Positions 8,934 through 37,233 of a DNA stretch of 37,518 nt are shown piece by piece. Source of the stretch: Candidatus Kuenenia stuttgartensis. GTDB taxonomy: Bacteria > Pseudomonadota > Alphaproteobacteria > SMXS01. The notes under the pieces are model-generated. The model was not told the origin of the DNA, ran no database searches, and was given only the letters and a program-made list of their open reading frames with translations. The translations under genes and the position numbers were made by a program. The stretch is taken from positions 1 through 37,518 of the forward strand of contig CALQFM020000038.1 of NCBI GenBank assembly GCA_943329845.2, in the 5' to 3' direction. The stretch's first letter is position 1; each line of letters opens with the position of its first letter.

Positions 8934-9350
8934 ATGCCGGACCGACTCGAAAGACTTTGCGTGGCCAAGGGTATGCGAATGACCGATCAGCGGCGGGTGA
9001 TCGCCCGCGTGCTGTCGGAGGCTCATGATCATCCCGACGTCGAAGAGCTGTACGCCCGCGCCGCCCGGATCGACAGTCATATCAGCATCGCGACGGTCTA
9101 CCGGACCGTCAGGCTGTTCGAGGAGGCCGGCATCCTGGAGCGCCACGACTTCAGGGACGGCCGTTCCCGATATGAGGAGGTGCCCGAGCGGCACCATGAC
9201 CATCTGATCGACGTCCAGAGCGGCAAGGTGGTCGAATTCCGCAACGAGGATATCGAGAAGCTGCAGGAATTTATCGCCAGGGAGCTGGGCTACAAGCTCG
9301 TCGACCATCGCCTCGAACTCTATGGCGTGCCGCTGAAAAGGGATTCCTGA
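8934..9350 (+). CDS. fur: Fur family metalloregulator (alphaproteobacterial Fur/Mur type)
   Basis: This is a DNA-binding iron or manganese sensor of 138 residues. The winged-helix recognition part is SIATVYRTVRLFEEAGIL (about residues 50-68) and the metal/dimerisation domain starts at RHHDHLIDVQSGKVVEF. Where enteric Fur has the first CxxC zinc pair, this protein has Asp and Ser, as in the rhizobial Fur/Mur type, so it should lack structural Zn-Cys4. Whether it responds to iron or manganese cannot be decided from sequence. The ATG at 8934 has a good AGGTGAGG ribosome site. It lies 48 bases after mucR, and the acyltransferase starts 5 bases after its stop. Confidence 0.93.
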   Translation: MPDRLERLCVAKGMRMTDQRRVIARVLSEAHDHPDVEELYARAARIDSHISIATVYRTVRLFEEAGILERHDFRDGRSRYEEVPERHHDHLIDVQSGKVVEFRNEDIEKLQEFIARELGYKLVDHRLELYGVPLKRDS

Positions 9351-34185: not shown

Positions 34186-34617
34186 ATGATGGACAACGCC
34201 ATGAACGAACGACCCTATGCCCAAGCGATCAACCGTCTGCGCGAGGCGGATCTTCGCCCGACGCGGCAGCGGCTGGCCCTGGCCAAGCTGCTGTTCGAGC
34301 AGGGCTGTGATCGCCATGTGACGGCGGAGACGCTGCACGAGGAGGCGCAGAAGTGCGGCGCCCGCGTATCGCTCGCCACGGTCTACAATACGCTGCACCA
34401 GTTCACCGACGCCGGCCTGCTGCGCGAGATCATGGTGGATTCGGGCAAGGCCTATTTCGACACCAACATCGCCGACCACCATCATTTCCTGTGCGAGCGG
34501 TCCGGTCAGCTGACGGACATTCCGGCGCACCTGGTGACCGTGGCCGACCTGCCATCGGCCCCTGACGGGCGCAGGATAAGCCGGGTCGACATCGTCATCC
34601 GCATCTGTGATCAGTGA
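34186..34617 (+). CDS. irr: Irr, iron response regulator (Fur superfamily)
   Basis: Irr is the alphaproteobacterial heme/iron-responsive regulator of iron storage, heme synthesis and peroxide genes. The 143-residue product matches the family closely: LRPTRQRLALAKLLF and RHVTAETLHEEA at the start, the recognition helix region SLATVYNTLHQFTDAGLLREI (about 62-82), and YFDTNIADHHHF with the heme-related His98-100. The N-terminal Cys-Pro heme regulatory motif of Bradyrhizobium Irr is absent, as in many other Irr proteins. ATG codons at 34186, 34189 and 34201 are all possible starts. The rubrerythrin operon follows on the same strand. Confidence 0.93.
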   Translation: MMDNAMNERPYAQAINRLREADLRPTRQRLALAKLLFEQGCDRHVTAETLHEEAQKCGARVSLATVYNTLHQFTDAGLLREIMVDSGKAYFDTNIADHHHFLCERSGQLTDIPAHLVTVADLPSAPDGRRISRVDIVIRICDQ

Positions 34618-34633
34618 CGGACGTCCCGCTATT

Positions 34634-34648
34634 TTATAATAATTCTAA
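34634..34648. promoter_or_regulatory. Irr/PerR-like box upstream of rubrerythrin
   Basis: TTATAATAATTCTAA matches the PerR box TTATAATnATTATAA at all but one defined position, and its right half TTCTAA matches the Irr (ICE) half-site. It ends 7 bases before the -35 box of the rubrerythrin promoter. Confidence 0.65.
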
Positions 34649-34655
34649 TTTAGGC

Positions 34656-34683
34656 TTGACCCTATTGTTATCCTGAGTATAGT
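34656..34683 (+). promoter_or_regulatory. Promoter of the rubrerythrin operon
   Basis: TTGACC (34656-34661), 16 bp, TATAGT (34678-34683). The predicted leader of about 80 bases contains a perfect 8-bp hairpin, GGCCTCGC-CGG-GCGAGGCC (34719-34737). Confidence 0.6.
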
Positions 34684-34770
34684 TTTGTCGGCTTGCATGT
34701 TTTTGCGCCAGCCGAAGGGGCCTCGCCGGGCGAGGCCGGGGAAGTATAACCACAAAGCACAGGAGATGTT

Positions 34771-35190
34771 ATGTCGCTTGCCGGTTCCAAGACAGTTGAC
34801 AATCTGAAGGCCGCTTTTGCTGGCGAAAGCCAGGCCAACCGCCGCTACCTGTATTTCGCGCAGAAGGCCGACGTGGAAGGCTATAACGACGTGGCCGCGG
34901 TATTCCGCTCCACCGCCGAAGGCGAGACCGGCCACGCTCATGGCCACCTGGAGTTCCTCGAGGCGGTCGGCGATCCGGCCACCGGCGAGCCGATCGGCGA
35001 GACCTCGCTGAACCTGAAGGCCGCCATCGCGGGCGAAACCCACGAATACACCGACATGTATCCTGGCATGGCCCGCACGGCCCGCGAGGAAGGCTTCGAC
35101 GAGATCGCCGACTGGTTCGAGACGCTGGCCAAGGCCGAGCGTTCGCACGCCGGCCGTTTCCAGAAGGCCCTGGACACCCTGGGCGCCTGA
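34771..35190 (+). CDS. Rubrerythrin (erythrin domain only)
   Basis: Rubrerythrins are diiron proteins that reduce hydrogen peroxide. This 139-residue form has only the four-helix diiron domain; the C-terminal rubredoxin domain of classical rubrerythrin is missing, so electrons must come from another protein. All ligands are present at family spacing: Glu19, Glu52 and His55 (ExxH in GETGHA), Glu89, Glu92, Glu123 and His126 (ERSH). It has its own promoter with an Irr/PerR-like box and is followed by the Fe-S protein and DUF3501 genes, which may supply electrons or repair. Confidence 0.95.
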
Positions 35191-35294: not shown

Positions 35295-36635
35295 ATGGCT
35301 GAAGGCAGTCTCGACGCGCCGATCCGCCATCCGCTGGATTGGAACAATCCGGATTTCTACGACGCTGAAAAGCTCGATGAGGAAGTCCGCCGGATTTTCG
35401 ACATCTGCCATGGCTGCCGCCGCTGCTTCAACCTGTGCGATTCGTTCCCGCGCCTGTTCGACCTGGTCGACGAGTCTCCGACCATGGAATTGGACGGCGT
35501 GGAGAGCAAGGATTTCAAGCCGGTCGTCGACGCCTGCACGCTGTGCGACCTCTGCTTCATGACCAAGTGTCCCTATGTGCCGCCGCACGAGTTCAACCTG
35601 GACTTCCCGCACCTGATGCTGCGCTACCGCGCCGCCGAGCGGCAGGCCGGCCACAAGAATTTCGTCCACGAGCAACTCGTCGAGACCGACCGCAACGGCA
35701 AGATCTTCGGCGCCATCGCGCCGGTCGCCAACTGGGCGACGAACCTCGACAACAAGCTGACCCGGCCGATCATGGAGAAGGTGGCGGATATCGACCGCAA
35801 CGCCTACGTCCCCAAGTTCCAGGGCGACACCTTCATGCGCCGGGCGAAGAAGAACCCGCCGTCGGTCAACACGGCCGCGCCGGGTCATGGGCGCAAGGCG
35901 GTGATCTACGCCACCTGCTTCGCCAACTACAACAACCCGGACATCGGCGTCGCCACCCAGGCGGTGCTGGCCAGGAACGGTGTCGAGACGCAGGTTGTCT
36001 ATCCGAAATGCTGCGGCATGCCGCTGCTCGAGCAGGGCGACATCGCCGGCGTCGCGGAGAATGCCCGCAAGGTGACGTCCGAGCTGCTGCCCTGGGTGGA
36101 GAAGGGCTACGACATCGTGGCGCTGGTACCGTCCTGCGCGCTGATGCTGAAGTTCGAATGGCCGCTGATCCTGCCCGGCGACGAGACGGTCAGGAAGATC
36201 GCCGGTGCGACGTTCGATTCGGCGGAGTACGTGGTCGACATTGCCCGCAAGCATGGCCTCGCCGAAGGGCTGCGTCCGCTGGAAGGCGGCGTCACCGTCC
36301 ATCTCGCCTGCCACGCCCGCGCCCAGAACATGGGCCCGAAGGCCGCCGAGATGCTGCGGCTGATCCCGGAGCCCGACGTGGCGGTGATCGAACGCTGCTC
36401 GGGCCATGGCGGGTCGTGGGGCATGCTGAAGGACAATTTCGAGGTGGCGCTGAAGGTCGGCAAGCCGGTCGCCCAGAACGCGGTGAAACAGGCCAAGGCC
36501 TATGTGTCGAGCGAGTGTCCGCTGGCCGCCGACCACATCGTCCAGGGCATGGAGCGGATCGACAAGGACAAGGCGCCGGCGCGTTCGTGGCACCCGATGG
36601 AGCTGATGGCGCTGGCCTACGGCATCCGGCCCTGA
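35295..36635 (+). CDS. GlpC-like Fe-S oxidoreductase (two 4Fe-4S sites plus two CCG domains)
   Basis: This 446-residue soluble protein is related to GlpC and heterodisulfide reductase HdrB/D. Two ferredoxin-type sites lie at the N-terminus: Cys38, 41, 44 and 48 ([11 protein letters not shown]) and Cys81, 84, 87 and 92 ([12 protein letters not shown]). Two cysteine-rich CCG domains follow: ATCFANYNN with [15 protein letters not shown], then [12 protein letters not shown] with [12 protein letters not shown] (CSG instead of CCG). Such proteins pass electrons between clusters, flavins or quinones. No glpA/glpB flavoprotein subunits are adjacent; the neighbours are rubrerythrin and DUF3501, so electron delivery to rubrerythrin is a reasonable guess, not shown. 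The ribosome site is AGAGGAAG. Confidence 0.88.
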
Positions 36636-36645
36636 GGAGGTTTCC

Positions 36646-37233
36646 GTGACCAGACAGATCACCCGTGCCGACATTCTCCCCATGGCCGACTACGCCAAGG
36701 TCCGCAAGGACAGGCGCGCCGAGCTGGTGGCGAAGAAGAAGCACCGCCGGGTCGAGGTCGGTCCCTATGTGACGTTCTACTTCGAGAGCTACGACACCAT
36801 GTGGGCCCAGATCCACGAAATGCTCTACATCGAGAAGGGCGGCGAGGAGCAGATCGCCGACGAACTGGCGGCCTACAATCCGCTGATCCCTCAGGGCAGC
36901 GAACTGATCGCCACCATGATGTTCGAGATCGACGAGGAGAATCGCCGCAAACGCGTGCTCGGCAGGCTGGGCGGTGTCGAGCAGACGGTGACGATCACCA
37001 TCGGCAGCCACGTGGTGCGCGGCAAGGCCGAGGAGGACGTGGACCGGACGACAGCGGCGGGCAAGACCTCGTCGGTGCACTTCCTGCACTTCCCGTTCAC
37101 CGGCGCCGACATCACGGCGTTTCGCGACCTGTCCCAGCCCGCGATCCTCGGCATCGGCCACGAGGGCTACCAGCACATGGCCATGCTGTCAGCGGATTCG
37201 CGCAAGGCGCTGGGCGGGGATTTCGACAGTTAA
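36646..37233 (+). CDS. DUF3501 family protein
   Basis: This is a 195-residue protein of unknown function. Recognisable family parts are [20 protein letters not shown] at the start, [19 protein letters not shown] in the middle and VHFLHFPFT near residue 145. It has no signal peptide, membrane helix or cysteine. GTG is the start at 36646 with a perfect GAGGAGG just after the upstream stop. From memory, DUF3501 genes often follow a rubrerythrin and a GlpC-like Fe-S gene, as here, which suggests that the three products work together. Confidence 0.85.

Follow-up and report, generated by a model that had tools for sequence, protein, structure and literature searches.

A 15-nt dyad separates irr, which encodes a Fur-family regulator, from the near-consensus promoter of the rubrerythrin gene rbr, and it raises the questions of which protein would bind there and with what effect on the operon downstream. 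The sequence analysed was contig CALQFM020000038.1 on its forward strand, 37,518 nt in all, hereafter called the window. From sequence comparisons, the dyad is very probably an Irr operator (Irr box, or ICE), and this operator probably acts mainly as a repressor.

A candidate Irr box upstream of rbr

The features of the locus are collected in Table 1. A first-pass annotation had placed the dyad between the irr stop codon (TGA, 34615-34617), 16 bp away, and a TTGACC-16-TATAGT promoter that begins 7 bp further on, and all of these coordinates were confirmed. From this promoter, rbr transcription would start near 34690. The GC-rich hairpin in the rbr leader had a counterpart in several leaders from the same genus, where it was followed by GGGGA and the stem sequence was different.

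Table 1. Features of the irr-rbr region (window coordinates)
Feature	Position	Strand	Evidence
irr (irrA), Fur-family regulator	34201..34617	+	NF045678 E 6.7e-63; NF045677 E 6.7e-57; PF01475
Predicted Irr box (ICE) TTATAATAATTCTAA	34634..34648	.	7-1-7 dyad, 1 mismatch from TTAGAATnATTCTAA
-35 hexamer TTGACC, rbr promoter	34656..34661	+	TTG[A/G]C likewise placed in orthologous spacers
-10 hexamer TATAGT	34678..34683	+	16-bp spacer; orthologues with TATATT-like -10 at 16-18 bp spacing
5' leader hairpin GGCCTCGC-CGG-GCGAGGCC before the ribosome site	34719..34737	+	single-sequence folds
Shine-Dalgarno AGGAG of rbr	34761..34765	+	sequence
rbr, rubrerythrin, 139 aa, aerobic type without rubredoxin tail	34771..35190	+	PF02915 E 5.7e-31; NF045767 (positions 3-144 of the 194-position model)
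RFO, rubrerythrin-associated GlpC-like Fe-S oxidoreductase	35295..36635	+	named RFO in PMC5114695
DUF3501 protein, third gene of the rbr cluster	36646..37233	+	PF12007 E 7.6e-61

The PerR consensus is TTATAATnATTATAA, and the window box differed from it by a single mismatch, C for A at position 12. Its right arm, TTCTAA, was a perfect Irr half-site. The annotation had pointed out both the single difference from PerR and the TTCTAA half, and both observations held. Compared to TTAGAATnATTCTAA, which is the family consensus derived from 61 orthologous sites, the sole mismatch was at position 4, the window copy carrying T4 and C12. Among the orthologous sites, position 4 was G in 49 of 61 and position 12 was C in 44 of 61, and this consensus identifies an Irr box and not a PerR box. 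Judged by these letters, the window dyad is an Irr box with one mismatch that has drifted towards PerR at position 4. A PerR/Irr-type operator had been proposed in the annotation; the Irr part stood with the orthologue consensus, and the PerR part was ruled out by G4 and C12 in the orthologues and by the lack of a PerR among the proteins found in the genome. The annotation had also considered the dyad unlikely to arise by chance, which agrees with a search of the window at up to three mismatches, where the box site was the only match and 0.02 matches were expected.

The box is conserved at irr-rbr loci

Two sets of loci were compared. Whole genomes of relatives supplied 24 irr loci, and a further 80 named loci came from bacterial genomes that included Magnetospirillum, Parvibaculum, Thalassospira, Azospirillum and numerous uncultured alphaproteobacteria. 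At 74 alphaproteobacterial loci, a rubrerythrin-family gene was found within 300 bp after irr. The sequence TTAGAATnATTCTAA was present at up to three mismatches in 55 of these 74 spacers, with 0.78 expected from dinucleotide shuffles, and the other 19 had no box at this threshold. Outside the window's genus, 49 of 68 spacers had the box (0.63 expected), and at irr loci without an adjacent rbr it was found in 3 of 27 (0.36 expected). Some orthologues matched TTAGAATnATTCTAA perfectly (for example L017, L031 and L124), and covariation of both arms was seen in few cases and serves as support only. In 57 of 61 sites the box was followed after 3-8 bp by a -35 element of the form TTG[A/G]C, the commonest gap being 4 bp (29 cases), and a TATATT-like -10 usually lay 17 bp beyond the -35. 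In L014, a congener that has lost rbr, the box was decayed and TTGGCC replaced TTGACC.

Being AT-rich and directly upstream of the -35, the stretch could be only an UP element for the alpha subunit of RNA polymerase, its symmetry due to chance. However, the half-sites of the dyad were conserved even in GC-bearing versions such as TTGGAACTGTTCCAA (L020 and L184), positions 5, 11 and 14 were near-invariant, and the same dyad was found over the start region of dps. An UP element and nothing else is thus highly improbable; the box may additionally act as one. Its location just past the irr stop codon would instead suit a segment of the terminator of irr, or an accidental symmetry, and this we consider the least credible reading of all, given the low number of chance matches expected in the window and the conservation across many families. 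Moreover, where rbr was apart from irr in genomes that encode Irr, the box was still at rbr in all five cases (L249, L254-L257). The box is therefore a feature of rbr, not of the 3' end of irr, and its conservation away from irr refutes the reading as a terminator or a chance dyad. Dyad conservation and the boxes at rbr genes away from irr disfavour an UP element only, a terminator and chance alike.

Boxes upstream of irr itself were found at up to three mismatches in 12 of 102 irr upstream regions, and the window's irr was not among them. Because such boxes were few and this irr had none, we do not claim autoregulation of irr.

Irr carries PerR-type residues

The gene name irr, assigned by the first-pass annotation, was confirmed by NCBIfam, with 210.7 bits against a cut-off of 150 for IrrA (NF045678) and 191.1 against 170 for Irr (NF045677). 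The same protein was far below the cut-offs of the PerR models. An alignment of 17 orthologues put the conserved start at ATG 34201, with further in-frame ATGs at 34186 and 34189. The window's genome encodes four Fur-family proteins; a separate PerR was not found among them, and none reached the PerR model cut-off. The five metal ligands of PerR (H37, D85, H91, H93 and D104) together with N61 were invariant in 17 of 17 aligned Irr sequences. This six-residue set was complete in Irr and in none of its three Fur-family paralogues in the genome, and Irr alone among the four combined Asn61, the PerR-type DNA-reading residue, with Asp104. A paper on Leptospira had already pointed out how Irr resembles PerR (PMC8638967). 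The HxH motif of Irr, predicted to bind haem, was present as H99-H-H101, with H99 and H101 invariant. The Cys-Pro pair of the Bradyrhizobium-type N-terminal haem regulatory motif was absent from the window Irr protein sequence. With HxH present and no Cys-Pro motif, a haem-driven degradation in the style of Bradyrhizobium is unlikely.

A second Fur-family gene, of the Fur/Mur type, is located at 8934-9350 in the window, about 25 kb from irr, and its product has Arg at the DNA-reading position. Several relatives also have this Fur/Mur gene and irr on one contig. A third Fur-family protein of the genome (G000:C30:2903-3244, L198) combines the Fur-type Arg and Glu with the PerR-type Asp104.

The boxes of the Fur family are alike, and in Magnetospirillum gryphiswaldense Fur directly regulates katG and sodB (PMC5459824), so the Fur/Mur protein or another Fur-family member might be the main binder in place of Irr. 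We consider this very unlikely. The other paralogues carry Arg at the DNA-reading position, whereas PerR and Irr carry Asn, and TTAGAATnATTCTAA fits the known Irr box and not the GATAAT-type Fur box. The box also tracks with Irr, since it was absent at the aerobic-type rbr of two genomes without an Irr match (L248 and L250), the only two informative for this prediction among the close rbr homologues. The Arg and the tracking together disfavour Fur/Mur as the binder.

Other sites suggest a small peroxide regulon

A search of the genome with the 15-mer had been proposed as a test in the annotation, and the next-best sites it returned precede genes for peroxiredoxin and dps. The refuting outcome named there, a lack of further sites upstream of iron or peroxide genes, thus did not occur. 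The exact 15-mer TTATAATAATTCTAA occurred once in the 3.68-Mb genome, and its only 1-mismatch relative was 42 bp before the peroxiredoxin gene. Peroxiredoxin orthologues with the box were found in G001, G004, G005, G010 and G018. The region immediately upstream of dps contained a 2-mismatch site that directly follows a TATCTT -10 and overlaps the -10/start region; G002, G005 and G007 have a box before the same dps gene, and dps boxes were also found in G012 and G018. A match to the window 15-mer with at most one mismatch was found at 13 places in the genus and family, compared to none for the reversed-pattern control, and 12 of the 13 precede rbr, prx, katG or DUF2061 genes. In relatives, boxes were found before katG (G005, G006, G007, G013 and G018), before a gene for a CCP/MauG-type di-haem peroxidase (G051) and before a DUF2061 gene that neighbours one for a truncated haemoglobin. 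The genome-wide searches were based on patterns and mismatch counts and not on a weight matrix; at three mismatches the genome-wide count was equal to the control count, and thus sites this weak are unreliable and we do not count them as targets. Irr would then control peroxiredoxin and dps in addition to the rbr operon, forming a small PerR-like peroxide regulon.

Some further sites were observed. Four congeners (L061, L075, L077 and L078) have a perfect Irr box between genes for a cytochrome P450 and a DUF2061 membrane protein, and three of the four also have a truncated-haemoglobin gene downstream; no site of this kind was seen at up to two mismatches in the window's own genome. The katG of that genome (G000:C35:34937-36366; L206, L212, L266) is split between two frames near codon 404, which could reflect a frameshift or an error of assembly, and there was no Irr box upstream of it, unlike the katG of several relatives. 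The sequence TTAGAGACGTTCTAA was found at G000:C16:35735-35749 (L071), 8 bp before a gene that by eye resembles IscA/ErpA for Fe-S insertion, and is a possible weak Irr target. A 2-mismatch site resembling the Irr box, 25 bp upstream of a gene for an rpoH-type sigma-32 (G000:C68:2998-3012, L010), could be due to chance.

Position of the box and the direction of control

In the proposed mechanism, the dyad is the operator of the rbr-RFO-DUF3501 operon and would be bound by a dimer of Irr, whose gene lies directly upstream. With its centre near -49, just 5' of the -35, the bound Irr would exclude RNA polymerase from the promoter, and peroxide and/or haem-iron would release Irr and allow the operon to be expressed. 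Irr is known both to repress and to activate (PMC7762939). Given that the dyad is an Irr operator, repression is the likely mode of control, because the box directly adjoins the -35 of a promoter that is close to consensus, the distance between the two differs from lineage to lineage and the dps box is over the start region. Steric blocking would tolerate such a variable gap, and the position of the dps box is that of a repressor. In vitro binding of Irr to boxes upstream of both mbfA and ccpA is known from Rhodobacter sphaeroides, where the direct target mbfA was about 8-fold higher in an irr mutant under iron limitation (PMC3413700).

A placement upstream of the -35 could also permit Irr at the same box to activate rbr, in low iron or under microaerobic conditions, and Irr is commonly an activator depending on the position of the ICE (PMC7762939). 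In Candidatus Pelagibacter ubique, rbr was slightly up, 1.57-fold, under iron limitation (PMC2864753), which, if a box is present there, would speak against a simple repression by apo-Irr. In contrast, a promoter that is already near consensus is rare among activator-dependent promoters, and a variation of 3-8 bp in the gap, nearly half a helical turn, is seldom tolerated in contact activation. The dps box overlaps the start region, and inducing an iron enzyme at low iron would make little sense. Activation of rbr is thus unlikely, and repression by Irr remains our preferred reading.

Two candidate signals for the release of Irr remain, namely haem, as in R. leguminosarum (PMC7762939), or a PerR-like oxidation of the metal. 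Manganese aided the binding of R. sphaeroides Irr to its boxes (PMC3413700), which would fit a metal-dependent form of Irr here by analogy. Direct metal-catalysed peroxide sensing by Irr, as against haem, is possible but somewhat less likely than not. A broader and doubtful proposal is that Irr in a broad alphaproteobacterial set is a true PerR equivalent, that is, a metal-dependent peroxide sensor with the PerR ligand set, a near-PerR box and a peroxide regulon of rbr-RFO-DUF3501, prx, dps and katG. If so, Bradyrhizobium would have a derived specialisation in its haem-sensing, HRM-driven iron regulator.

Comparison with known systems

Irr boxes, the PerR-like residues of Irr and the control of peroxide and iron genes by Irr were already published, as was the rbr-RFO-DUF3501 cluster (PMC5114695). 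Compared to the aerobic-type cluster in that paper, whose main text has no occurrence of Irr, the gene content of the three genes here was identical. The irr-box-rbr module was not found described in the literature covered, which excludes Rodionov 2006, Rudolph 2006 and the 2015 IrrB paper. As far as checked, the novelty lies in how widespread the irr-rbr module is and how constant its geometry, together with the PerR-like regulon. The aerobic-type rbr operon, with DUF3501 and Fe-S partners that have no known role, thereby gains a clear candidate regulator and a testable signal. The dozens of lineages with an irr-box-promoter-rbr module provide a dataset on the origin of Irr as a peroxide or a haem sensor, and the same dataset serves to derive a rule that ties the position of the Irr box to repression or activation.

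In M. gryphiswaldense, IrrA and IrrB also tie an alphaproteobacterial Irr to iron, oxygen and oxidative stress (PMC5459824). Its rubrerythrin was 2.1-fold lower without oxygen (PMC9549626), and a description of Irr acting at the rbr promoter of this species was not found. The system resembles PerR of the Bacillus subtilis type in a box that is one mismatch off, in targets for peroxide defence, and in an Irr with the five metal ligands and Asn61, but the family consensus has G4/C12 and not T4/A12, and the regulator scores as Irr. The bfr and mbfA genes of Bradyrhizobium and mbfA and ccpA of R. sphaeroides (PMC3413700, PMC7762939) share with this locus the same dyad, the same regulator family and targets in the handling of peroxide and iron, and the start of R. 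sphaeroides ccpA, about 40 nt downstream of its box, has much the same geometry as rbr here. In contrast to both, an aerobic-type rbr-RFO-DUF3501 operon lies here beside irr, with peroxiredoxin, dps and, in relatives, katG as further targets, and the window copy of the box has one altered arm, TTATAA.
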